Part shown: positions 13,134 through 30,392 of the stretch, piece by piece
Position numbering within the stretch: the first letter of the stretch is position 1
Layout: each line of letters opens with the position of its first letter
NCBI GenBank assembly: GCA_036490175.1
Contig: DASXEJ010000361.1
Span: 1 to 55,147 of the forward strand
Origin: Pirellulales bacterium
Lineage (GTDB): Bacteria; Planctomycetota; Planctomycetia; Pirellulales; JACPPG01
Direction: 5' to 3'
DNA length: 55,147 bases
Translations under genes and position numbers: made by a program
Notes under the pieces: model-generated
Databases searched by the model: none
What the model was told of the DNA's origin: nothing
What the model saw: only the letters and a program-made list of their open reading frames with translations

Positions 13134-15539
13134 ATGGCTGCTGACAGTGACAGAGTAGCAAGCGGTTCGAGCAGAGAGCGCCGGCCCACCCTGGCGGCAG
13201 TTGATATCCAAATGTTCAGGAACGCATATCCTCCGCGGCGCAGTCCTGCTGAGCGGCGCTTGCACGTCGAAGCACTCGAGTCCCGCCACTTGCTGAGCGC
13301 GTCGGGTGTTGTCGGGGATGCCAATAACGATGGCATCGTCAATGGCCTGGATATCAACCTGGTAGCAATGCATTGGCTGAGCACCGGTGCGCAGCCGTTG
13401 CCTGGTGACGTCAACGCCGACGGTCACGTCAATGGGCTCGATCTCAACATCATTGCTACGAATTGGATGCAAAGGGCAACTCCGCCGTCGGTCACTGTTC
13501 CGGCTGGTCCTTTGAGCGTCAATCAGAATCTCAACCTGGCGATCACTGGCGTCTCGGTGGCAGACAGCGCGCTGTCGCCCAGCACCAGCACCGTGAAGCT
13601 AACGCTGTCGGTCGGACACGGCGCGCTCACGCTGGCTACGAACGTGACGGGTGGGCTAACCAGCGGGCAAGTTTCGCAGAACGGAACCACCACGGTGACG
13701 GTCACCGCCCCGTTGGCAGCGATCAATGCCACGCTCGCCACCGCGAATGGTCTGCTGTACACGCCGACGAGCGGCTATTTCGGTCCCGATACGTTCCTGG
13801 CCTCGATGACTGATCTAGGCCATACCAGTTCAGGCATCCCGCAAACCGTCTCGCGAAGCACACAAATCACTGTCACGGTTCCGAGCGTCGCGCCGACAGA
13901 TGTGCCAGGCTTGCAATTCTGGCTCGACCCTTACGATACCAGCACGATGACGTTGACCAACGTCGCCGAGACCAAGGGAAGTCCCACGAGCAATTTGCAA
14001 TCAACCAGTGGCACACCGTTCGACTTCCAAGGCAACGGCACGTCCAGCCAGTTCACGATGGCCTTCTGGGTTTATCCCGAAAGGACCTGGTCTGATGCCA
14101 GCTGGCTGATGGCGAACGCGAAAAACACCTTCCGCAATAACGATATCAGCTGGTTCTTGTCGATTGCCAATGGTGCCACGGGCACACTCCGTACCACGTA
14201 TTCGACCGCCAGCTCGACCTCGACATTAAAGGACTACGCTGGCGCGATGCCTGTTGCCAATCAATGGTACTTCGTCGTCATCACGTACGACGGCTCGCAG
14301 GTGGGCACTGCCACAACCCAGGATCAATTGCGCCAGCAAGTGTATGTAAACGGGCAACAAATTCCGACGCCGGCCGGTGATTCGCTACCGCAAAAGATCT
14401 ATGCCGCGGCCAATGCCGGCAAACTCTACTTGGGGGCTGTCGACGCCGCCATCAACAACACCACGCCCGAGCAATTCCAGGACGTCGGCTTCTGGAACCA
14501 TTGGATCAGCAGCAGCACCGCGGCCGCGCTTTGGAACGGAGGAGCCGGCGTTACGTATGCCACTTTGCCGGCTGGCGCCAACGATCCGTTCGCCTATTAC
14601 TCGATGAATGAAGCCAGTGGCACGCGGTTCGACTCGACCAGCAATCACTACGATCTGTCGGCCGGATCCGCGGGCGTAGGCAGCGTGCAAGAAATCAGCG
14701 CCTGGCGCGACAAATCACAAAACCATATCACTATGCTCTTCGGCTACAATCCAGACACGGGAATTCAACAGCGTCAGTTCTTCGGCGTTTACTCCCTGAC
14801 CGCCCGCGACGGTCTGCCCGGCGTGGTGATGCCAGCCGGAGCGTGGGCCTACGCCGCCTCGACGACCATCAGCACGCTGTCGTCAGGCAACCTGTTCATG
14901 AACGTGCAGCTTGACGCACCCAACCGTGGCGAGAACGAACTGTTTGATTTCTCCGACGATGTGACCGACGGGCAAGACAGCTTCATGGGGATCAACTACA
15001 TCGGGCCGAACACGGCGCCTGATGCCGGCCCCCCCGCCGGCAGCGGAAACCCCAACACCAGCACCTATGTGCCCACATTCCATACTCACGCCGGCAATGC
15101 CGTCACGCACGCGGGGGGCTGGACGGCGAATATCTTGAACATCAATGGCCCCGAAGGGACCGGAGCGCAGGTATCGAATAACACCTACTTTGCACAGGGT
15201 GGAGACTACAGCTACGAATTTGAAAACGTTCTCAACGGCACCGCGGGCACGGGCACCGCGCCCGGACCGTACCGCATGTGGATCAATCAATCTCCACAGA
15301 CGATCTATGTTGCCGACGGCGGCGGCGGGTCCATCCCGCAACTATGGGGCGACGGCTTCGCCGCGTCCGGCGGACAACTTTCATGCATCACCCTGGGCGG
15401 GCTAGCCTCGCGCAGCGCGACAGGCGTGTGGCGAATCACTACCGCCACCGGCGACACCTACGGTGACATCATGGAATACGGCCCGGTCGTGACCGGTACG
15501 AACGACGCGGCGCTACGCCAATTCATGGCCAATCGATGA
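13134..15539 (+). CDS. LEPR-type secreted protein with N-terminal dockerin and LamG domain
   Basis: 801 residues. An LESRHLL motif (residues 48-54) is a LEPR-XLL variant and suggests the same export route as the two S53 peptidases. A two-repeat dockerin follows at once (about residues 58-115); its N-terminal position is unusual, since the others in this window are C-terminal. Residues 120-250 are a cadherin-like beta sandwich. The segment GLQFWLDPYDTSTMTL near 257-275 and SAWRDKSQN near 522-532 look like the two halves of one surface module, separated by a LamG/concanavalin-like domain (about 290-510). The rest is an uncharacterised beta-rich region. No enzyme motif was seen. The start could instead be the ATG at 13212, which still keeps the export motif. 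Confidence 0.7.
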   Translation: MAADSDRVASGSSRERRPTLAAVDIQMFRNAYPPRRSPAERRLHVEALESRHLLSASGVVGDANNDGIVNGLDINLVAMHWLSTGAQPLPGDVNADGHVNGLDLNIIATNWMQRATPPSVTVPAGPLSVNQNLNLAITGVSVADSALSPSTSTVKLTLSVGHGALTLATNVTGGLTSGQVSQNGTTTVTVTAPLAAINATLATANGLLYTPTSGYFGPDTFLASMTDLGHTSSGIPQTVSRSTQITVTVPSVAPTDVPGLQFWLDPYDTSTMTLTNVAETKGSPTSNLQSTSGTPFDFQGNGTSSQFTMAFWVYPERTWSDASWLMANAKNTFRNNDISWFLSIANGATGTLRTTYSTASSTSTLKDYAGAMPVANQWYFVVITYDGSQVGTATTQDQLRQQVYVNGQQIPTPAGDSLPQKIYAAANAGKLYLGAVDAAINNTTPEQFQDVGFWNHWISSSTAAALWNGGAGVTYATLPAGANDPFAYYSMNEASGTRFDSTSNHYDLSAGSAGVGSVQEISAWRDKSQNHITMLFGYNPDTGIQQRQFFGVYSLTARDGLPGVVMPAGAWAYAASTTISTLSSGNLFMNVQLDAPNRGENELFDFSDDVTDGQDSFMGINYIGPNTAPDAGPPAGSGNPNTSTYVPTFHTHAGNAVTHAGGWTANILNINGPEGTGAQVSNNTYFAQGGDYSYEFENVLNGTAGTGTAPGPYRMWINQSPQTIYVADGGGGSIPQLWGDGFAASGGQLSCITLGGLASRSATGVWRITTATGDTYGDIMEYGPVVTGTNDAALRQFMANR

Positions 15540-19155: not shown

Positions 19156-20631
19156 ATGACCACGGCGACCGCGCCCTCGAAGACTGCTCCTTCGATTACA
19201 CAGACCAAATTGCTGATCGATAACAAGTGGGTTTCTCCGGCCGAAGGGGGGACCTTCGAGACCTTGAATCCTGCCACCGGCGAAGTCCTTGCCGAGGTGG
19301 CCGCCGGCACCGCGGCCGACATCGATCGCGCCGTTAAGGCTGCCCGCCGCGCCGTCGAAGAAGGGCCCTGGAGCACAATGGACGCCGCGGATCGCGGCCG
19401 GCTGTTGCTGCGACTGGCGGACCTAGTGGACTCGCACGCCAAGGAATTGGCGGCGCTCGAATCGCTCAACTCGGGTAAGACGATCACCGACTCGCAAGGC
19501 GACATGGGCGGCGTCGCCGCCACGCTGCGCTACTACGGCGGCTGGGCAGACAAGATCGAAGGCCGCACCGTGCCGGTGCGCGGCAACTTTTTGTCGTACA
19601 CGCTGCGTCAGCCGGTGGGCGTCGTGGGTCAGATCATTCCGTGGAATTTTCCGCTGTTGATGTTGTCTTGGAAGTGGGGGCCGGCGCTGGCTTGCGGTAA
19701 CGCCATCGTGATGAAGCCGGCCGAGCAGACGCCGTTGACGGCGTTGCGAATTGGCGAGCTCGCGATCGAAGCCGGTTTTCCTGCCGGGGTGATCAACCTG
19801 GTGAACGGGTTTGGCGAGACGGCGGGCGCAGCCCTCGTGGCGCATCCCGATGTCGACAAGATCGCCTTCACCGGGCACGTCGATACCGCCAAGATCATTC
19901 AAAAGGCGGCCGCTGACTCGCTCAAGCGCGTCACATTCGAGTTGGGGGGCAAAAGCCCGAACGTGATCTTTGCCGATGCGGATCTCGACGAGGCGGTGGC
20001 CGGCGCGTTCCACGCCATTTACTTTCATGGCGGACAATGCTGCACGGCTGGCAGCCGGTTGTTTGTGGAAGAGAAGATCCACGGCGATTTTGTCGAACGT
20101 TTGGCTGCCAAGGCCAAACAGCGCCGCGTGGGAAATCCGCTCGACGCATCGACCGAGCAGGGCCCACAGGTCTCGCAAGAGCAGATGGACAAGATCCTCG
20201 GCTACGTGAGCCTGGGAACGAAGCAAGGCGCCAAGCTGGTCACGGGCGGCCAGCGCAAAGGCGAGCAAGGCTTCTTCGTCGAGCCCACGATCTTCGACAA
20301 TGTCAGCGATGAAATGGCCATCGCCCGCGACGAGATCTTTGGCCCCGTCGTCAGCGTGCTGCCGTTCCGCAGTTTCAAGGAAGTTACCGAGCGTGCCAAT
20401 CGTACCAACTACGGTCTGGCCGCGGCAATTTGGACCCAGGATGTCGACAAGGCCCATTTGTATGCCAAACGGGTCAAGGCCGGCACGGTGTGGGTGAATT
20501 GCTACCACGTCGTGGATACCACGACGCCGTTTGGTGGTTTTAAGCAATCGGGCCAAGGCCGCGAAAATGGCGAGGCCGCCTTGGAGCACTACACCGAGCT
20601 GAAGACCGTGACCGTGAAGCTAAAGGGTTGA
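19156..20631 (+). CDS. NAD(P)-dependent aldehyde dehydrogenase
   Basis: 491 residues, normal for the ALDH superfamily. The general base is E262 in FELGGKSPN and the catalytic nucleophile is C296, the second Cys of [10 protein letters not shown]; their spacing of 34 equals that in mitochondrial ALDH2. The cofactor-site segment [14 protein letters not shown] and the C-terminal [15 protein letters not shown] pattern are also present. It oxidises an aldehyde to the acid in the cytoplasm; the closest groups are retinal/betaine/phenylacetaldehyde-type enzymes. AGGAG before the ATG supports this start. A small gene begins four bases after the stop, suggesting one transcript. A putative operator lies upstream. 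Confidence 0.92.
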
Positions 20632-20635
20632 TTCC

Positions 20636-20956
20636 GTGACCGGATGCGAACGTGTCGTATTCGAGTTTGTAGGCGGCCCACGCGACGGCGAACGTCTGAG
20701 TGGCTGCCTCGACAGCGGTGCGCTGACCGAGGCGGGCGCCTTTTACCAATACACCGACGGTGCTCAAGTGGGCACGCGGTTTTGGTGTACTTGCGAATCC
20801 GCCGCGTCGGCCATGCGGACCATACCCTGGGAAAGTCTGGAGGCCCTGGATGCGGCTGGTTACCGCTTCCAGGGTCATCTCTATGAAATCTTCATGCGCT
20901 GTGAGAAGCGTCGGACGTTGCTCGTCCGTTCTCGGCATATCGGCTCGTCGGAATGA
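20636..20956 (+). CDS. Small protein of unknown function linked to aldehyde dehydrogenase
   Basis: 106 residues, GTG start, four bases after the aldehyde dehydrogenase stop, so translation is probably coupled. I do not recognise the family. It begins CERVVFEFVGGPRDGERLSG, a GGPxDG pattern seen in small planctomycete proteins of unknown role, and ends in a basic stretch (MRCEKRRTLLVRSRH). No signal peptide or membrane segment is seen. Its stop nearly touches the end of the converging chimera gene at 20961. Confidence 0.55.
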   Translation: MTGCERVVFEFVGGPRDGERLSGCLDSGALTEAGAFYQYTDGAQVGTRFWCTCESAASAMRTIPWESLEALDAAGYRFQGHLYEIFMRCEKRRTLLVRSRHIGSSE

Positions 20957-20960
20957 GCGC

Positions 20961-22076
20961 TCAGGCGTCTGAATTCAGACAAGGCTCGGATAATCGTGCG
21001 TCATTAGAGACCGATTCGTCAGGCACGAAGACGAATTGGGCGGCGCCAGCCGACTCTTGCAATCGCAGCCAGGTGCAGTGATCGACAAGTGATCGTTGGC
21101 CGCGGCGCAAGACCACTCCACTATCGTCGCACACCTCCGCAAACGGTCCGCGATAAATGACCGTATGCCGTCGCGCAGCGCCTGCGGGCCCTGGCTGCCA
21201 AGCGCGCATGCGCGTTTCGCGAAGTTCGGCCCCTGCGTGCCTGAAGCGATACACCTCGCCGAAAGTCACCAGTTCCAGCCCCACGAATCCCGCATGCCTG
21301 ACCGCGGCGAGGACTTCGCCGTCGGTCGACACATATTCAACCGCAGCCGCGGGTCCCGGCAAGCGCGGGGCATCGTCCAAAGGTCGATCGGCCGTCAGGC
21401 CACGCAGCAACAGTTTGCCCCCAGCGCGCAATACGCGTGCGGCTTCCTTCAGGACCAGGTTTGGCTGGATGTCGTTCGGGGTTGCATTCAACGTTCCTTC
21501 CAACACGATTTCGTCCAGCGAACCGTCGGCGGCCGGGATGTGGGCCGGTAGGGGATCGCCCAATTGGTGCGCCCAATGCGTCGGCGCTGCCAGCGGCGGT
21601 GGCGCGGGTAATCCCGCACTCAGAGGAGCGATTCCGATCGGCTCGCAGGCCGCGTCGCCCGGTTCTTCGAGCACGTAAAGTTCCCACAGGTTTCCGGCCG
21701 GATCGTTGACCCAGAACTTAGTCTGCCGCGAATGGCAGCAAGCGACGCTTGCCTCGCAATCGTGCGGCACGTTCGCCGCGACGAGACGGTCTTGCAAAGC
21801 CGCCAGCGCCTGATGACTGGGAAGACGAAATCCTATGTGATTCAGTCCCGCGCCATTCGGTACATCGGTCGGCACCAGCGATAGCACGACCGCCGGATCA
21901 GACAATTCGAACTTGGCATAGTCGACGTGTATCTGATCGGGCTTAGTTCCCAACAGCAGAGTCAGGAACTCGGCGGTTGCCCGCACGTCATGAACGTTCA
22001 GCGACAGATGAAATTTCGACGAACCCACGACTTGCTGCTCCGGCCTGTTGAGATGAACGCTCTTTGACCTGATCAA
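20961..22076 (-). CDS. ArsI-like C-As lyase (VOC) fused to C-terminal half of a methyltransferase
   Basis: 371 residues. Residues 20-140 are a VOC-fold domain with all ArsI hallmarks. The predicted Fe(II) ligands are H23 (KFHLSLNV), H80 (LNHIGF) and E132 (LWELYVL), and the vicinal pair is C113-C114 (VACCHSRQTKFWV), which binds trivalent organoarsenicals in ArsI. Their spacings nearly equal those I recall for Bacillus ArsI. Residues 180-290 resemble the second half of an ArsM-like class I methyltransferase (VLKEAARVLRAGGKLLLRG), but the glycine-rich SAM-binding motif is absent. Residues 300-360 (YRGPFAEVCDDSGVV) look like a tail found on some bacterial methyltransferases, from memory. It is 15 bases after the phytanoyl-CoA-dioxygenase-family gene. 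It could degrade or bind methylarsenicals; sulfur- or selenium-based chemistry is not excluded. Confidence 0.75.
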   Translation of the reverse strand: MIRSKSVHLNRPEQQVVGSSKFHLSLNVHDVRATAEFLTLLLGTKPDQIHVDYAKFELSDPAVVLSLVPTDVPNGAGLNHIGFRLPSHQALAALQDRLVAANVPHDCEASVACCHSRQTKFWVNDPAGNLWELYVLEEPGDAACEPIGIAPLSAGLPAPPPLAAPTHWAHQLGDPLPAHIPAADGSLDEIVLEGTLNATPNDIQPNLVLKEAARVLRAGGKLLLRGLTADRPLDDAPRLPGPAAAVEYVSTDGEVLAAVRHAGFVGLELVTFGEVYRFRHAGAELRETRMRAWQPGPAGAARRHTVIYRGPFAEVCDDSGVVLRRGQRSLVDHCTWLRLQESAGAAQFVFVPDESVSNDARLSEPCLNSDA

Positions 22077-22091
22077 CGTGCGGCCACAACG

Positions 22092-22883
22092 TCAAGCGAA
22101 GTAGACTTCTGTCCTGCCATACTCGGCGTAACGATCACGCAGCCATCCATGATATTCGCGGTAATGGGCCGCCCGACAGTTGCCGCCATCGCTCTCGGCG
22201 TTATAGCTAAAGTAGAGTTGCCGGCGCCAACGACGCGAGCGATTCACCCCCGAGCGATGAGGAGTGAATCCGCTAAAAAACGCCACGTCTCCCGGCGACA
22301 ATTGCAGTTTTACGCCCAGACGCTCGTCTATCATACCCGAGGGGATTTCGTGATACATGCCGTCGGCGGGCATCAACGGCCCCTGTTTGTGCATCCCCGC
22401 GAACACCTCGGTGCAACCACTTTGGGAATCGGCCACGTCTAGGGCCACGATTACGGTTAAGAAACTATGCGGGAACGTGGGCCAGGCAATGTAGTCCTGG
22501 TGCAGGGCATAACCACTTGCCCCGGGCGGCTTGAAAATCAACTTGTCCTTGAAAAGCCGGCCTCGCTCGCCGTACAGTATCTGCAGCAGAGCATGGATCT
22601 TCGGATCATTCGCGGCGCGGGCCATTACGGCACCGAGATCGACGATGGGGTCAAAGGCGTCAAAGATGCACGCCCCGGTCTCGGCGTCGGTTTGCCAACG
22701 ACAGCGCAGGTTGTTGGTTTCGATCAAGTCTTCGCGCTTGACGAGTTGCCGGGCCTCGGCATCGAACGCGGCTATTTCATCCGACGAAAACAAGCCGCGC
22801 ACGATGCCAAAGCCGTTGGCATGATAATGCTGCACGGTGTCGTCGAAGTCCTGCGCTTGGGAAGGTAGAACCGCGTGCGACAT
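22092..22883 (-). CDS. Phytanoyl-CoA dioxygenase (PhyH) family Fe(II)/2-oxoglutarate oxygenase
   Basis: 263 residues of the PhyH family, a jelly-roll fold that uses Fe(II) and 2-oxoglutarate. The facial triad is H and D in ALHQDYIAW plus the distal His in FTPHRSGVNRS, with the Arg of that segment as the likely 2-oxoglutarate anchor. The N-terminal YHANGFGIVRGLFSSDEI is the usual start of the fold. Length is typical. It sits between an ArsR regulator and the ArsI chimera on the same strand, an uncommon place for this family. Substrate cannot be read from sequence; hydroxylation of a small organic or organoarsenical compound is only a context-based inference. Confidence 0.85.
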   Translation of the reverse strand: MSHAVLPSQAQDFDDTVQHYHANGFGIVRGLFSSDEIAAFDAEARQLVKREDLIETNNLRCRWQTDAETGACIFDAFDPIVDLGAVMARAANDPKIHALLQILYGERGRLFKDKLIFKPPGASGYALHQDYIAWPTFPHSFLTVIVALDVADSQSGCTEVFAGMHKQGPLMPADGMYHEIPSGMIDERLGVKLQLSPGDVAFFSGFTPHRSGVNRSRRWRRQLYFSYNAESDGGNCRAAHYREYHGWLRDRYAEYGRTEVYFA

Positions 22884-23014
22884 GCGAGAGACTCCCCATT
22901 CGTCAATCAGCCAACGCTACGGCAGGCCGCTTACGGTCGGCCGCCGCACGGCTCGGGAATACCCGAAGGTCACAGCATACGCGGATCGCGCGGCCGCCCC
23001 AAGGATTCATTCCC

Positions 23015-23428
23015 TTATCGCCGCAATTTGTGTAGCCCGCGGTCCGTCCCCTGGCGTGGTGATTCGAGTTGGACCAGATCAAGTTGGCAACACCCCAAGT
23101 CGATGGTTCTTGTTCCGGCGGCGCTGACGTTACCGGCCGCCACCTCGGGCGAGAGGGAGTAGATGACGAATTTTCCCTGCTTTTGTGTCGACACTAGATG
23201 AGCCACCCGCAACACCCCCAAGTGGTGCGAGACCTTGTCGATCGGCATCCCCAACTCATCGCCCAAACCGGTGACGCTCTTTTCGCCGCGCAACAAACTG
23301 TTAACAATCCGTAAGCGGTCTGGATCTGCCAAGGCCTTCAGCCGCGACGCGCACGATTGATAATCGCTCTCCGTCCGCATCGCCGCGTGCAACGTTATCG
23401 CTTTGCCGTTGCGTTGTCGTGCAGTCAT
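23015..23428 (-). CDS. ArsR/SmtB-family metalloregulator
   Basis: 137 residues from the ATG at 23428, preceded by AGGAAT; a longer frame adds 72 residues with no resemblance to the family. The winged helix runs SCASRLKALADPDRLRIVNS to VSHHLGVLRVAHLVSTQKQG, with a YSL wing end, as in ArsR repressors. After the wing there is a C-terminal tail with a vicinal Cys pair in DLGCCQLDL, a plausible As(III)/Sb(III) site; the classic ELCVCDL box of E. coli ArsR in the recognition helix is absent. The first gene of a three-gene minus-strand cluster (131 bases to the dioxygenase). A perfect palindrome lies about 205 bases upstream. Confidence 0.85.
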   Translation of the reverse strand: MTARQRNGKAITLHAAMRTESDYQSCASRLKALADPDRLRIVNSLLRGEKSVTGLGDELGMPIDKVSHHLGVLRVAHLVSTQKQGKFVIYSLSPEVAAGNVSAAGTRTIDLGCCQLDLVQLESPRQGTDRGLHKLRR

Positions 23429-23886
23429 GAAGCATTCCTTTGTTCTGAGGATGCTAAAGTCAATCAGATTATGTCCATACGCCCAAAATAGGGAAGACCC
23501 GAGCCCCCACCCTGGGCCCATGCCGTTCGCGCAGCGTATTGTGCAAGACTGCCACGAACTGTTACTCCCACGTGAAAATACCCCTGGCGACTTGCACAGT
23601 GGAATAAAACGTGATAACAATGTCACGCCCGTACGATTGTACAATCGTCTGATTAATCGTCCAAGGGTTCATGCATCTACGGTTTGACATAGACCTAACC
23701 CCACCGAATAATTCCGGCCTGCCCCAGTTATCCATCCTGGCGAGCATCGTAGTGAATCGCTGGAGCCGGCAAACGGCAGAGTGCCAGGCTAATGGCCTGG
23801 AAGCCAGTAATTCGTCCGACCCCCATTGTAAATCGTTGCAGTCGGCATCTTAGTTTTGACATCCCCGAAAAGAAGCGGAGTATCGC
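23429..23886. other. Divergent region between the ars-like cluster and a PEP-CTERM gene
   Basis: No credible gene. This 458-base region should hold promoters for the minus-strand arsR-led cluster and for the plus-strand gene at 23887. It contains a perfect palindrome (23633-23648), a second half-site at 23655-23660, and a CGTGA-N8-TCACG repeat (23610-23627), listed separately. Confidence 0.4.
23610..23660. promoter_or_regulatory. Cluster of inverted repeats, candidate ArsR operator
   Basis: ACGATTGT (23633-23640) joined directly to ACAATCGT (23641-23648) is a perfect 16-base palindrome. The AATCGT half-site recurs at 23655-23660, 12 bases on, inside GATTAATCGT. A separate repeat, CGTGA (23610-23614) and TCACG (23623-23627), lies just before. 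Symmetric AT-centred sites are typical for ArsR/SmtB repressors. They are about 205 bases from the arsR start, so a long leader or control of the divergent gene is possible. Confidence 0.5.
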
Positions 23887-25212
23887 ATGCGTCTCTCGAG
23901 CATCACCTCGCGTTTTCTGTCGTTTGCGTTCCTCGTAGTGGTAACTTCCTCGGTCGCCCAAGCTGACGTGGTGGTGCCCGATTATGGGTATTTTGGTAAT
24001 TCGACCGGCGTCTATCGATTCGACGAGACGACTGGTGCGCCCGTCGGCAGCCAGCCGGTCGTGCAGCCCGTCGGCAGCCCCGGCAATCCGGCCGACCCCG
24101 GCTACGTTGGTGACGGTTACCAGGCTGAGGGATCGGCCTATGGCCCGGATGGCAACCTGTACGTTGGCTATTTCATCGCGCAAGGAAACGACGACACCGG
24201 CATCGGCGAGGTGCGTCGTTACAACGGCGTGACTGGCGCATACATCGACACGTTTGTCGCTCCGGGGAGCGGCGGTCTCGTGCAGCCGGGAGATCTGAAG
24301 TTCGACGGCTCTACCTTGTACGTGGCCGACCACGGCAATATCGTAGGCGCCGAAACGCCGACTCCTATTCCCTATGGTGGGACGAGTGTTATCACATACA
24401 GCGCCACGACCGGCACCTCGAACGGCGCGATCAACTTCGGCGCACCGCTCGGCCCCTCAGGCCTGGCATTTGATCCTCGTCCGGCCAGCCTCGGCGGCAA
24501 TCCCAACAACCTGTACATCAGCCTGTTCAATGCCAACGAAGTCGTTCAGTACAATACGCTCACGCATGCGATGACCACCTACGCAGCCGGCAGCGGAATG
24601 ACCACGCCCAGCGGCATCGCCTTTGGCCCCAATGGCGATTTGTACGTAGTGAACCTTTTTACTGCTTCGGTACAAGAGTTCCACCAGAACGCGGGCGGTA
24701 CGGCCGACTATGTGACGGCCTTGCCGACGACCGGCGCAAATTCGTTTCCGGATGGCATCGCCTTCACGCAGGGAGGCCAACTGCTTGTATCGACTCTGGG
24801 ACCGGGCCTGGCGCCGGGCGCCGTGCTGTCGTACGACGCCGCAGGTTCAACCTGGAATACCTTTGCCACCTCTCCCTCACTGGGCAGCCCTGGTCCTATC
24901 ACCCTCACGCCGATTGGTGGCGATGCTAATGCCGACGGTGTTGTAAACGGTCTCGATCTCAACCTGGTCGCCAGCCACTGGCTATCTGGCAGTCCGTCGG
25001 GCGACGTCAACGCCGATGGCGTCATCAATGGTCTGGATATCAATCTGATCGCCCAGAACTGGCTTCATACCAACAGCATCTATGGTGGCGGCGGCTCGGG
25101 CGGCGGAGCCGGAGCCAACGTGCCCGAGCCCTCGACGATGGCCATGCTGATCGGTATCGGGATCTGTGGACTTACGAGTACACTACGGCGTCGGAAGTCG
25201 ATCGGATCCTAG
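23887..25212 (+). CDS. Secreted beta-propeller-like protein with dockerin and PEP-CTERM
   Basis: 441 residues. A signal peptide (SFAFLVVVTSSVAQA) leads to an NHL/SMP-30-like propeller with repeating YGPDGNLYVGY, FDGSTLYVADHG and FGPNGDLYVVNL strands. A paired dockerin follows (about residues 345-395; DANADGVVNGLDLNLVASHW then DVNADGVINGLDINLIAQNW). A Gly/Ser-rich linker and a C-terminal VPEPSTMAMLIGIGICGL segment plus basic tail (RRRK) complete it; that is a PEP-CTERM sorting signal, processed by exosortase. It probably ends up on or outside the cell surface. No enzyme motif is seen. The DUF1559 gene begins 24 bases after its stop. Confidence 0.85.
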   Translation: MRLSSITSRFLSFAFLVVVTSSVAQADVVVPDYGYFGNSTGVYRFDETTGAPVGSQPVVQPVGSPGNPADPGYVGDGYQAEGSAYGPDGNLYVGYFIAQGNDDTGIGEVRRYNGVTGAYIDTFVAPGSGGLVQPGDLKFDGSTLYVADHGNIVGAETPTPIPYGGTSVITYSATTGTSNGAINFGAPLGPSGLAFDPRPASLGGNPNNLYISLFNANEVVQYNTLTHAMTTYAAGSGMTTPSGIAFGPNGDLYVVNLFTASVQEFHQNAGGTADYVTALPTTGANSFPDGIAFTQGGQLLVSTLGPGLAPGAVLSYDAAGSTWNTFATSPSLGSPGPITLTPIGGDANADGVVNGLDLNLVASHWLSGSPSGDVNADGVINGLDINLIAQNWLHTNSIYGGGGSGGGAGANVPEPSTMAMLIGIGICGLTSTLRRRKSIGS

Positions 25213-25236
25213 CGAGTGTGCCGGCGGTTGCCTTCT

Positions 25237-26253
25237 ATGCGTCGAATGCAGAAAAAACGACGCGGATTCACGCTCGTCGAGCTACTGGTGGTGATCGCCG
25301 TCATCGGGGTGCTGATCGCACTATTGCTGCCGGCGGTGCAAATGGCCCGCGAGGCCGCGCGGCGCATGAGCTGCGAAAACAATTTCAAGCAGCTTGGGCT
25401 TGCGTTACATGATTTTGAAAGCGCAAATGGACAATTCCCTACAGGCTCTGTGGCAAAGGCCTATCCTCCGGGGAATCTAAGCTTTCTCCAAACTTTTTAT
25501 CGCTGGTCGGCGTTCGCGTACCTGGCCCCCTACTTCGAACAAGGAAACCTGATCGGAGCGCTGGACCTCACCGTGCCCATGTATGGCGCGAGCGGCCCGG
25601 CGGCTGCACAGAACGGCATCGTTTTCGCTACTGTGATTCCGTTGCTACTTTGTCCAAGTGATATTCAGGAAGTAACGGACATCGGCTTCGGCCCGACCAA
25701 CTATGCGATGTGCGCCGGCACCGGCCTTCCGGGCGGAAGTCCGATCGCGGCCGACGGATTGTTCTACGTCAATTCGGCGACACGCTTCGCCGATATCATT
25801 GACGGTTCCTCACAAACGCTCGCGGCTTCTGAAAGTTTGTTAGGTACCGGCTTGGAGCCACTGACCGTAGCGTCGCAAGTGGATCCTCGCCGCGATTACT
25901 CTTTCTATCTGGGTGCGCCAATAAGTGACGCGATCTGCGCCGCACCAACGATTTGGAACTTCACCAATCGTCGCGGTTTTTCCTGGGCTGACGGCGAACT
26001 GCGGTGCGCACTCTACAATCACTATTACCCGCCAAACTACCGCGGCACCGACTGTATGGGTGCGAACCAATCAGGGCAACCGACTTTGCGTAACACAGCC
26101 TATGGTTGGCGTGCCGCCAGAAGTATGCACCCCGGCGGTGTGAATGCATTGCGGGCCGACGGATCTTGCCAGTTCTTTAACGAATCGATTGATCTGGCTA
26201 CGTGGCAAACGCTCTCCACGCGCGGGCAGTCGGAAGTCCCCGCTGGCAATTGA
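25237..26253 (+). CDS. DUF1559 prepilin-like protein
   Basis: 338 residues from the ATG at 25237; an in-frame GTG at 25216 would add seven residues. The N-terminus is a type IV prepilin leader, [20 protein letters not shown], cut between G and F by prepilin peptidase, followed by [19 protein letters not shown], the DUF1559 signature. The C-terminal [20 protein letters not shown] is also family-typical. Planctomycetes carry dozens of these; they are thought to form pseudopilin-like or surface structures. It may be co-transcribed with the PEP-CTERM gene 24 bases upstream. Specific role unknown. Confidence 0.92.
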
Positions 26254-26376: not shown

Positions 26377-29300
26377 CTACGCGCTTCTAAATCGCCCGTC
26401 GGCCGCCAGCACATCGAGCAAGTCTTCGTCGACGCTCGAAGCCAGCAATTGACCAAACATGGCGGTCCCGGCATCAGCGACGGGCCATTTCGACGAATTC
26501 GGCACAGATTTGCCTGATTGATGTGCCGCCGAGGATAAAGTCGACAAACCCGCCAGGCCGCCGCTGACCGACTTCTGTGAAAGAACGTGGTCGATCGATG
26601 CAGCAAACTGCGGCGCGTCGAGCTTGCCGATAAACGATGCCGTACGATCAAGCGCCTGCGGACTGGCGAACGACGGCGCGAGCTCAAAGAGCAGCTGTGC
26701 CGGCGAGGATGCCACAGCACTCGTCACGTTCGCACTGGCAACGCTCAACGCCGCAACGTCAGCCCGCGCTGCGGCAAGCACGCTGCCATTGGCGTCGTTT
26801 TGCGCTACTTGGATAACTGCAGCGCTGGCCGCAGCGCCGTTAATATTATCGATCGTGGCGTTGCCGGTTCCGACGGTATCGATATCGCCCGCGCCGGCGC
26901 CACTTCCGGAACCGCCGCCGGCCGGGAGCGTTTTCAACCATTGCGAAGCGATTACATTTATGTCCAAGCCGTTGACGATGCCATCGCCATTGATGTCGCC
27001 GGCCAGGCCGCCCACCGACAGCCAATGCGACGCGATCTGGTTAATATCCAGACCGTTGACGACTCCGTCTGGGCTTGTGTCGCCAGGCAGGATATTGACG
27101 CCGAAGCGGAAATCGCCACCGGGGCTGCCGTTGCCCGACGGAAACACGCTTGTGCCATTCGTCCAGTCCCCGTCGAGGGGATTGCCTAAGGAATCGGTAA
27201 CGGCATTCACGCCGGTCGACACTAGATCGAGTGTTAGTCGGTCCGTGCCGATCGGGCTGGCCAACGTCCAAATAGCCGTGTGCGTTGTATTGCTATAGCT
27301 AAATCCGTTGAACGCGTACTGGCCCACCGACACGCCCGTGACTACCAGACTATTCTCCGAGACGTTCACGTTCTCATTGAATGTGATCTGGATCTGATTC
27401 AAGGTGTTCCAGGGCAACGGTTGCAACTGCGCTGACGAGCCGACGGGGATTTGATAGCCCGTCGCGCCTAGACCCGCGTTCTGCAAGGCACTCTGAAAGG
27501 TTGGCGCCCAGGTCGAGCCGTCGACCACCACCGCGGCGACACGCGGCGGCACTACAACGTTGATCGTCATGCTCTTGGGCAACGGATCCAGGTTGATGCC
27601 GCCGTTAGCGGTACCGCCGTTGTCCTCGACCTGGAACATGAAACTCGTATACGGCGAGCCACTGGCGCCGGCGGACGACGTAAAGGTGAGCAATCCGGCG
27701 GCGATGTCGGTGGCGCTAACCAATTGCCCCGCGGTAACCGCCACGCCGTTATCGGCCAAAGTTCCGACCGTGGGCACAGGCACAGTAGTGATCTCGACTG
27801 CCAGCAGCGAGTTCGGCGGATTGTCGTTGGGATCGCTGAAGCCAAAATCGCTCGCGGCAAACTGGTAGGGCGTCCCCTGAAATTCGGTGATCGTGTTATT
27901 AGTGCCGGTCGGTGCGTGGTTAATGCTCATCACAGTGAAAGACAGTGGACTGCTGGCCGCGGCCAGCGCGCCGGCTCCGTCAAATGCCTGCACCTTCCAC
28001 TGGAAGCTATCCCCCGTGGCTAACCCCGCGGCCGGCGTGTAGCTGGTGCCAGTCACCGAGATGCCGTTGGCAATCGTGGTCTGCGTGGTCGTGTCAACGA
28101 TTGTCAGAAAATAGCCCGTCGCGTCTGGGACTGATGACCACTGAAACGTGGGAGTCGTTGTACTCACGGTTCCGCTAGGTGCCGTCGGGGTCGGCACTTC
28201 GCTGATGCCCGCCAATGCTGACACGATCGTATTGGCGCGCGGACTGCCCAGACCGGTTACATAGTCATAACCTGGCCCGGCGGACAAACCGCCCGTATTC
28301 GTTCCGGACGTCACATCGAGAAAGTCATAGGCGTAACTACCATTGGAGTAGAGCGCGTAGAGGTCGTTCAATGTGGTGAGGCCGGGCAAGGCGCCCGCCG
28401 TCCCGCGGGCCTGATCGGCAATGGCCACCAACGCGGCCCAAGAGGGTGACCCCAAGCTAGTTCCGCCGACATTGAACCAAGGTTGGCTGATACTGCCGTC
28501 GTACGTGTCGTATACATATACACCCGAAGCGTTATTGGCATCGAAGGACACATCCGGGGCCATGCGGAGGCCGGGATTCGATCCTCCCGACGGCTGTACG
28601 CCGTGCTGGTAGGAGAATTGCGGATTGGGGCTGGGGCCGCCGTTGCTGTCAATCCAGGCTACCTCGCCGGCGTATGTCCCGTCGGCTGCGATCGAGAGCG
28701 TAGTGCCTCCGACGCCCAGCACATTCGGATCGGTGGCGGGATACTCGCCCGCCCCTCCGGAATCCCCGCTCGAAGCGATAAACGTCACGCCCACTTTGCC
28801 CGACGGAGTGCTGTACAGGGCGGGATCGTTCTGCGAGAAGGTCTCGATCGCACCATAGCTCATCGAAACGACCGAAGCCGCCGGCAGGCTCGACAATGTG
28901 CCGATACCAGAATGGACCGCGGTAGAAACTGCAACATCCAGGTTCGAAAAACTGTTGTCGGTCGCCTCGACAAGCAAGATGTTTGCCCCGGGCGCCAGCG
29001 CGTGCGCCCACTCGACGTCGAGCGAGATCTCGATGCCGGCATTCGCATTATCGCCCGTCTTCGGCGCATTGCTTGGCAACGGAGAGGCATTGCCGTTTTG
29101 GTTGACGACTGTCAGTTGAGGATCCGGCAGACCAAACGCGTGATCAAAGGCCTTCAGGTCCGAGACAATGTTCGGCTGATTCCACGGATCGACGATGGCA
29201 ATCGTCTGGCCGGTGCCATCCCCTTTGGTAGGGCCGCTTGGACCGTTCGGCGGAAAGAAAATATTGTTGAATCCATAGACCATTGCAATTTGCGCAGGTT

Positions 29301-29625
29301 TAAATGGCGAGGACAGGTTAACCAGCGGCTCTGCCCCTCCGGACGAGGCGTCTTGATCACTGGCCGACGAAGCGCCGGCCGTCGCCGCTCCAGAACCGGC
29401 CGCCGTGATAGAGGTGATGGATGCCGATGAAGCGTTGACGACCGAATCGCCAGGCGCCGCGGTGGGCGTGGCAATAATCTGCGAACTGGCGGCGTCAAAT
29501 AGATAGCGCTCTTCAAGCGACTCTAAACGCAACGCGCGCGCGCGACACCGTGCGCGCCGCTTCGCTGGTTTATTTATCCAAACACCGTGTTGTTGCGCAA
29601 AGCTGCCTGCCGCGCGACGTGCCAT
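26377..29625 (-). CDS. Secreted S53 (sedolisin) peptidase with dockerin, paralogue of the 7535 gene
   Basis: 1082 residues from the ATG at 29625 (an upstream ATG at 29676 would add 17). LEERYLF (residues 37-43) is a LEPR-XLL variant. The sedolisin domain spans about residues 120-480: E199 and D203 in EISLDVEWAHA, the oxyanion Asp in ASSGDSGG, and nucleophile S390 in GGTSLGSP. Then come an Ig-like domain (FQWSSVPDATGYFL), a cadherin-like domain, and an Ig-like segment shared with the other peptidase (FSYSNTTHTAIWTLASPIG). A paired dockerin, Gly/Ser linker and a C-terminal tail follow (PSFASPQALDRTASFIGKL). Unlike its relative it has no SdrD-B/P-domain repeats. Secreted; substrate unknown. Confidence 0.85.
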   Translation of the reverse strand: MARRAAGSFAQQHGVWINKPAKRRARCRARALRLESLEERYLFDAASSQIIATPTAAPGDSVVNASSASITSITAAGSGAATAGASSASDQDASSGGAEPLVNLSSPFKPAQIAMVYGFNNIFFPPNGPSGPTKGDGTGQTIAIVDPWNQPNIVSDLKAFDHAFGLPDPQLTVVNQNGNASPLPSNAPKTGDNANAGIEISLDVEWAHALAPGANILLVEATDNSFSNLDVAVSTAVHSGIGTLSSLPAASVVSMSYGAIETFSQNDPALYSTPSGKVGVTFIASSGDSGGAGEYPATDPNVLGVGGTTLSIAADGTYAGEVAWIDSNGGPSPNPQFSYQHGVQPSGGSNPGLRMAPDVSFDANNASGVYVYDTYDGSISQPWFNVGGTSLGSPSWAALVAIADQARGTAGALPGLTTLNDLYALYSNGSYAYDFLDVTSGTNTGGLSAGPGYDYVTGLGSPRANTIVSALAGISEVPTPTAPSGTVSTTTPTFQWSSVPDATGYFLTIVDTTTQTTIANGISVTGTSYTPAAGLATGDSFQWKVQAFDGAGALAAASSPLSFTVMSINHAPTGTNNTITEFQGTPYQFAASDFGFSDPNDNPPNSLLAVEITTVPVPTVGTLADNGVAVTAGQLVSATDIAAGLLTFTSSAGASGSPYTSFMFQVEDNGGTANGGINLDPLPKSMTINVVVPPRVAAVVVDGSTWAPTFQSALQNAGLGATGYQIPVGSSAQLQPLPWNTLNQIQITFNENVNVSENSLVVTGVSVGQYAFNGFSYSNTTHTAIWTLASPIGTDRLTLDLVSTGVNAVTDSLGNPLDGDWTNGTSVFPSGNGSPGGDFRFGVNILPGDTSPDGVVNGLDINQIASHWLSVGGLAGDINGDGIVNGLDINVIASQWLKTLPAGGGSGSGAGAGDIDTVGTGNATIDNINGAAASAAVIQVAQNDANGSVLAAARADVAALSVASANVTSAVASSPAQLLFELAPSFASPQALDRTASFIGKLDAPQFAASIDHVLSQKSVSGGLAGLSTLSSAAHQSGKSVPNSSKWPVADAGTAMFGQLLASSVDEDLLDVLAADGRFRSA

Positions 29626-30392
29626 ACCCCAGTCCCTTCCCCCTTCCGGCATCGGCCAGTGCCGGTCGATGATCAATCTAGGCTAACCGACTCGGCGTGG
29701 CAATCAAGACCAGGACGTAGGGCGTGCTGGTACTCGATCGGGGCTAGCCGATTGGGCATCCCCTCATTTCCGCATTACTTACGAAGCGGCAATCGCAAAG
29801 CGGTGCTGAACCGGGTCAGAAGCCATTCAGGAATCCGACCGATTGCTTGACAACGATTTCCTTCGGCACACGGAATGGAAGAGATCCCAGCCGGCCAACT
29901 TTACGTCGGCACGGACTTGCCCTTCGCCGGCCTTGCGACAAATCGCGGCATGCCGCGCCAGAAATCGCGGCGGCTTGTCGAACTGAAAGAAGCGCTCCAG
30001 GGCCATCTCGGGAGTGACAACCAACGTGCCAGCATGCGCACCACGTCGTCTTCGCAGCGGTTAATGTTTTCAAGTTGGTCACTGGAATCTTCCGAGGCGC
30101 TGACACGTCTCGGCGCTTATAACAGATCCGCACCAGAACGGATCGCAGTGGCAGCATAGCGTAGCTGGCAAAACAAACGAGCGGCATCAAAGCAGACCGT
30201 GCATGATGCTTGCAAATTATTCAGGCAACCCGGCGGCGTCCATGCTAGCCCTCCTGTGACTCGTTCAAGCGGTCTTGTGGAGCACCTTGGAAAGAGGTAT
30301 CAGTTTCGCCTTACCGCTCTCTCCGGGGTGCGCGACGACGGGTCCGGGGTAGGAGCCCTACCCCCGCATTGGACCTTATCTTGGTCGATCGG
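29626..30392. other. Noncoding or decayed stretch
   Basis: No gene is supported in this 767-base stretch. On the minus strand around 29816-30024 two overlapping frames each contain protein-like pieces (LERFFQFDKPPRFLARHAAI in one, LPFRVPKEIVVKQSVGF in another). This could be the remnant of a frameshifted gene, but no family is recognisable and the idea is weak. Confidence 0.3.

Follow-up and report, generated by a model that had tools for sequence, protein, structure and literature searches.

A PhyH-type oxygenase linked to an ArsI–half-ArsM chimera in Planctomycetota and Verrucomicrobiota: an ArsR-associated cassette possibly for oxidative breakdown of organic arsenic compounds

Biological cleavage of the carbon–arsenic bond is known mainly from ArsI acting on trivalent methylarsenicals, and little is known of how organoarsenicals that are pentavalent or larger, such as arsenosugars, arsenobetaine and methylarsonate, are degraded. 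The canonical ars operon, arsR-acr3-arsC-arsI, combines an arsenite efflux pump and an arsenate reductase with ArsR. The ArsR protein SpArsR senses MAs(III) only, through its C-terminal pair C101–C102 (PMC13236881). Methylphosphonate is broken down in two steps, in which the Fe/2OG enzyme PhnY* hydroxylates the substrate and the Fe(II) oxygenase PhnZ then frees formate and phosphate, as described for Gimesia maris and Prochlorococcus (PMC6581173). The locus described here resembles each of these systems in part. It lies in a 55,147-nucleotide stretch of DNA from a Pirellulales bacterium (contig DASXEJ010000361.1), hereafter the window, whose relevant features are as follows.

20961–22076, minus strand: VOC-MTc chimera of 371 aa (TTG at 22076, stop at 20961; the real start may be slightly downstream)
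21006–21590, minus strand: MTc domain, residues 163–357 of the chimera, resembling the C-terminal half of an ArsM-type methyltransferase (NF040538, alignment, Foldseek)
21663–22019, minus strand: ArsI-like VOC domain, residues 20–138 of the chimera, with H23, H80, E132 and C113–C114 (alignment to ArsI 5dfg, conservation, tree)
22092–22883, minus strand: PhyH-type Fe(II)/2-oxoglutarate oxygenase of 263 aa, with H128-x-D130...H209 and R220 (PF05721)
23015–23428, minus strand: arsR, ArsR/SmtB repressor of 137 aa (ATG at 23428, stop at 23015; profile scans)
23633–23648, no strand assigned: perfect 16-bp palindrome ACGATTGTACAATCGT, candidate ArsR operator (absent in relatives)
23636–23663, minus strand: promoter-like site for arsR, TGGACG-16-TACAAT (consensus match only)
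23684–23712, plus strand: divergent promoter-like site, TTGACA-17-AATAAT, directed towards 23887 (consensus match only)
23887–25212, plus strand: secreted NHL-repeat/dockerin/PEP-CTERM protein, divergent from arsR (architecture and position)
25216–26253, plus strand: DUF1559 (PF07596) pseudopilin-like protein of a cassette-specific type (loci count, tree)

The open reading frames match the first-pass annotation, which had described arsR, an oxygenase and an ArsI chimera as three genes on one strand, here the minus strand, with gaps of 131 bases (arsR/PhyH) and 15 bases (PhyH/chimera). Profile scans place the ArsR in HTH_5 (6.6e-10) and among the NF033788 metalloregulators (78.2 bits against a cut-off of 55), and find in the chimera a glyoxalase/VOC domain (3.7e-11) followed by a Methyltransf_11/ArsM C-terminal half. 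The oxygenase matches PF05721 at 3.1e-26 (93.4 bits against a Pfam cut-off of 22). No arsC, acr3 or arsP was identified in family scans of part of the window's ORFs, as had been claimed, and gene content bears out the statement that the set lies outside the standard ars set: the window shares ArsR and ArsI-type parts with the canonical operon yet lacks its efflux pump and arsenate reductase, whereas the cassette adds PhyH, half an ArsM, an MFS carrier and either DUF1559 or a TonB receptor. Two flanking frames, an aldehyde dehydrogenase (19156–20631) and the ORF at 20636–20956, were considered as members and rejected, as neither was found near other cassettes. Several window proteins carry dockerin type I domains (23887–25212, 26377–29676, 13134–15539), one of them together with PEP-CTERM.

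The association between PhyH and the chimera is not due to chance. Across 398 genomes of the class, 57 carry both genes, 4 only PhyH, 8 only the chimera and 329 neither (PhyH in 61 of 398, the chimera in 65), and about 15% of the sampled class genomes hold the cassette; the Fisher p of 4e-55 for this co-occurrence is overstated and merely indicative, since the genomes are related. The two genes are usually close together in these genomes, with 54 of 67 PhyH places lying within 7 kb of a chimera. Among 98 relatives searched, the chimera is patchy, being found in roughly ten of the order's genomes and absent from four congeners, and PhyH adjoins it in all but one of those order loci. When named genomes were scanned with the PhyH profile, 60 loci had identities of about 41% and above; they belong to Planctomycetota and Verrucomicrobiota, apart from a few whose records bear the label Nevskiaceae/Stagnimonas. 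A VOC gene stands in the fetched flanks of 54 of the 60, and several of the six loci without one end at contig ends. The association is kept across phyla, and the outcome that would have refuted the first-pass annotation, genes that do not adjoin one another in related genomes, did not occur. Metagenome bins make up most of the cassette genomes, although Zavarzinella formosa, Limnoglobus roseus and Planctomycetales bacterium 10988 also carry the cassette. A first genome-contig scan with the chimera as query gave no matches, and a plasmid search returned plain ArsI matches only, nothing covering 80% of the chimera. Tandem VOC-MTc genes occur in six loci (L052, L054, L057, L062, L070, L093), where first and second copies fall mostly into separate clades, which suggests that the gene duplicated long ago and that the copies have divided their tasks; four class genomes (G146, G267, G340, G125) hold such pairs with no PhyH nearby.

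The identification of the oxygenase stands: beyond the PF05721 match, the Fe/2OG triad H128, D130, H209 and the 2OG arginine R220 are invariant in 79 relatives, and an AF2 model (pLDDT 93.8) shows an Fe/2OG fold, with SnoN, proline hydroxylase and EctD as its closest structures. At the sequence level, NCBIfam ranks methylphosphonate hydroxylase (PhnY*, NF052437) first for the window protein and its relatives, at 73.7 bits for the window protein and 77–101 for the relatives, all below the cut-off of 500. Of 60 cassette-type PhyHs, 55 carry Cys61, against 0 of 19 distant homologues, a difference that may reflect descent. Such distant homologues (34–42%), lacking both VOC/ArsR neighbours and Cys61, were found in Paenibacillus (L107, L109, L111, L117, L118, L120, L122) and in Poribacteria (L112–L116, L119, L121).

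The first-pass annotation had also seen an ArsI-type lyase fused to a methyltransferase-like region; the fusion and the ArsI site stand, but methylation is not to be expected. Starting with the VOC half, the best PDB match is ArsI C–As lyase (1e-15), and H23, H80, E132, C113 and C114 match ArsI positions in the alignment and recur in 36–39 of 41 homologues; the first three correspond to the metal ligands of TcArsI. The chimera thus keeps an ArsI active site, from which lyase activity is predicted. With ArsI (NF041414; TcArsI 5c4p/5dfg) it has in common the VOC fold, the vicinal cysteine pair and the ArsR partner. Unlike ArsI, it is fused to half an ArsM and tied to PhyH, and in the tree the VOC domains of the cassettes fall into a single, well-supported clade separate from canonical ArsI. 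Its window copy scores 96.7 bits against NF041414 ArsI/CadI, under the cut-off of 116 that cassette relatives pass with 130–140 bits.

The MTc half resembles ArsM (NF040538, 4fr0, planctomycete full-length ArsM) in profile and fold, but over its C-terminal half only. The NF040538 match covers positions 168–348 and begins at 168 of 356, such that the SAM-binding N-terminal half, with motif I, is missing. In the SNCV- and SGC-type columns, cysteine stands in 14 of 14 full-length ArsMs and is replaced by other residues in the chimeras, and only a tail-near cysteine of MTc aligns with ArsM. Because both the SAM half and the ArsM cysteines are lost, a methyltransferase activity of MTc was rejected. 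The AF2 model of the chimera (pLDDT 84.9) shows two ordered domains, which match ArsM (4.8e-12) and ArsI in Foldseek; since the VIA-align list held mostly VOC structures, MTc was assessed by Foldseek and the CrArsM row. MTc is also dispensable, the VOC domain standing alone in L080 and L083.

Turning to regulation, the C-terminal cysteine pair earlier noted in the ArsR is present as C113–C114. Together with Cys26 these are the protein's only cysteines, and all three are invariant in six cassette ArsRs. SpArsR (PMC13236881) likewise has a C-terminal vicinal pair, and in the cassette ArsR no cysteine stands shortly after the pair; the cassette ArsR differs in the further invariant Cys26 near its N-terminal helix, a possible third ligand that an ArsR of the SpArsR type would lack. 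The palindrome at 23633–23648 covers the −10-like element of the arsR promoter-like site and adjoins the divergent one. It is only a candidate operator, because it is not common to relatives; no shared ArsR operator motif was found across 30 loci.

A direct tie to arsenic comes from three genomes of one genus only (G136, G167, G217), in which the cassette adjoins arsR-acr3-arsC-arsI. One strand there carries, in order, DUF1559, PhyH, MFS, VOC-MTc, a Cys-Cys ArsR, a gene that we take to be DUF488-like (no NCBIfam match), a second ArsR, ACR3, an ArsC-like arsenate reductase and a plain ArsI; the first four are spaced as in an operon, at most about 10 bases apart. Since a plain ArsI stands next door, it can be argued that the chimera does something other than plain ArsI. 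This bears on a simpler account, which we consider unlikely: a methylarsenite-resistance set, in which VOC-MTc would be an ArsI variant demethylating MAs(III), the MFS carrier would export arsenicals and PhyH would be a secondary modifier or protector. The intact ArsI site and the likeness of the Cys-pair ArsR to the MAs(III)-specific SpArsR (PMC13236881) agree with such a set. PhyH, however, is no less constant than the VOC gene, which sits poorly with a secondary role, and with canonical ArsI a few kb away in those three genomes the chimera is no mere substitute. MFS exporters often occur in ars operons, which again suits resistance, but the TonB receptors of other cassettes point to uptake.

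Over the class as a whole, a link to ACR3 was considered and dropped, ACR3 and the cassette showing no association beyond chance (11 genomes, p 0.15), and a search of the window genome found no ACR3 and no ArsB. A canonical arsR-arsI-arsC set does occur on a 7.8-kb contig with proteobacterial-looking genes (G000:C99, L132, 1666–3386); this contig, the sole place of arsC seen in the bin, is possibly a contaminant. The missing class-wide ACR3 link and the loss of the ArsM catalytic cysteines from MTc favour a function unrelated to arsenic, in which ArsI and ArsM parts were exapted for another thiophilic element, an organometal or metallophore, or an arsenic-free organic acid. So does a CobW/COG0523 metallochaperone-type GTPase, which is fused to the end of VOC-MTc in five verrucomicrobial loci (L064, L065, L068, L072, L075) and lies nearby in others. 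The fusion lengthens the protein to 717–737 aa, and the L064 product ends in Cys-Cys. The highest-scoring models for the cassette MFS are likewise those of organic acids. A non-arsenic role is nonetheless improbable, for the Cys-Cys pairs are retained in both VOC and ArsR, and arsR-acr3-arsC-arsI adjoins the cassette in three genomes.

The three genes first described are linked as claimed, but the cassette proves larger, usually including an MFS carrier plus DUF1559 or a TonB-dependent receptor. An MFS gene is found in 50 of the 60 loci and ArsR in 30; DUF1559 lies near PhyH in 35 loci, and 12 have a TonB-dependent receptor, never both in one locus, an exclusion that phylum explains in part. 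In the window a DUF1559 gene is present and an MFS gene is absent. Its DUF1559 protein (25216–26253) groups in the tree with cassette copies, apart from 10 of the 11 paralogues in the window genome (exact placement moderately supported), and is assigned to the cassette. Loci L038, L045 and L046 similarly lack an MFS and show a divergent layout with a secreted NHL/PEP-CTERM protein beyond arsR; L038 and L046 additionally carry a DUF1559 gene. The NHL/PEP-CTERM-type proteins at this place (L038, L041/L046, L045) are alike in architecture and have no BLAST similarity to 23887–25212. A cassette-type MFS gene at a contig end (G000:C76:48488–49681), beside a modABC-like molybdate transporter, was rejected as the missing cassette gene of the window genome: congeners without the cassette carry it too, and the MFS-less cassette genomes (G036 and the genomes containing L045, L081, L090, L052 and L057) lack such an MFS, so it is not evidence. 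No modABC was found as a recurring cassette neighbour.

The TonB receptor scores 313.6 bits against the siderophore-type model TIGR01783 (cut-off 223.5), and siderophore-type receptors, Fe/2OG oxygenases and MFS carriers are all common in metabolite clusters. A biosynthetic cassette, whose PhyH and VOC-MTc would build an arsenic metabolite that leaves the cell through the MFS carrier and is taken up again by means of the TonB receptor or the DUF1559 protein, would fit these parts, as well as the finding that the ArsM model nearest to the MTc half is that of arsinothricin. We judge it quite improbable: no enzyme forming C–As bonds, be it a complete ArsM or an ArsL/ArsS radical SAM protein, was seen recurring in the cassette, and no full-length ArsM of the kind searched was found in the window genome.

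The reading preferred here, held tentatively and at a little under an even chance, is that of an ArsR-controlled cassette that takes in an organic arsenic compound and breaks its C–As bond by oxidation. Import would rely on a surface component, DUF1559 in this locus and a TonB-dependent receptor in others, usually together with an MFS carrier; PhyH would add a hydroxyl group to the arsenic-bound carbon, much as PhnY* acts on methylphosphonate. The ArsI-like VOC domain would then hold trivalent arsenic via Cys113–Cys114 and Fe(II) and cleave the C–As bond, with the half-ArsM domain serving perhaps as a binding or docking module, and ArsR would leave its promoter upon meeting a trivalent (methyl)arsenical through its C-terminal cysteine pair. 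As in PhnY*/PhnZ (PMC6581173), an Fe/2OG hydroxylase would be followed by an Fe(II) oxygenase cleaving a carbon–heteroatom bond; here, by contrast, the second enzyme is a VOC protein and not an HD-domain protein like PhnZ, control is by ArsR, and the PhyH scores lie below the PhnY* cut-off. Counting for this oxidative reading are the linkage of PhyH and VOC-MTc, the ars adjacency with the cassette's own Cys-Cys ArsR, the ArsI residues, the relatives above the NF041414 cut-off, the methylphosphonate hydroxylase match, Cys61, the surface and transport genes, and the SpArsR-like pair. Against it count the distance from the PhnY* cut-off, the missing class-wide ACR3 link, the confinement of ars linkage to one genus, the lack of ACR3/ArsB in the window genome and of an MFS in the window copy, and the dispensability of MTc.

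The gene set is apparently undescribed, though present in dozens of planctomycete and verrucomicrobial genomes. No description of a PhyH–ArsI combination or an ArsI–ArsM chimera was found in the open-access literature searched, in keeping with the earlier suggestion of novelty; with most subscription journals outside the search, this is weak evidence. The cassette would be a variant of arsenical processing based on ArsI, and there is a sizeable chance that it represents a new pathway. Its fullest form is possible but doubtful: a pathway acquiring and mineralizing environmental organoarsenicals by envelope uptake, Fe/2OG hydroxylation of the arsenic-bound carbon and cleavage by ArsI–half-ArsM, which would be for arsenic what PhnY*/PhnZ is for methylphosphonate and would extend across Planctomycetota and Verrucomicrobiota. 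The chimera itself illustrates an unusual domain fate, half a methyltransferase retained as the non-methylating partner of a predicted lyase. By uniting a dedicated oxygenase, putative uptake genes and an ArsI chimera, the cassette points to an unrecognized route of organic-arsenic breakdown, and it supplies named genes and strains (Zavarzinella formosa DSM 19928, Limnoglobus roseus PX52 and Planctomycetales bacterium 10988) in which such a route can be directly tested.
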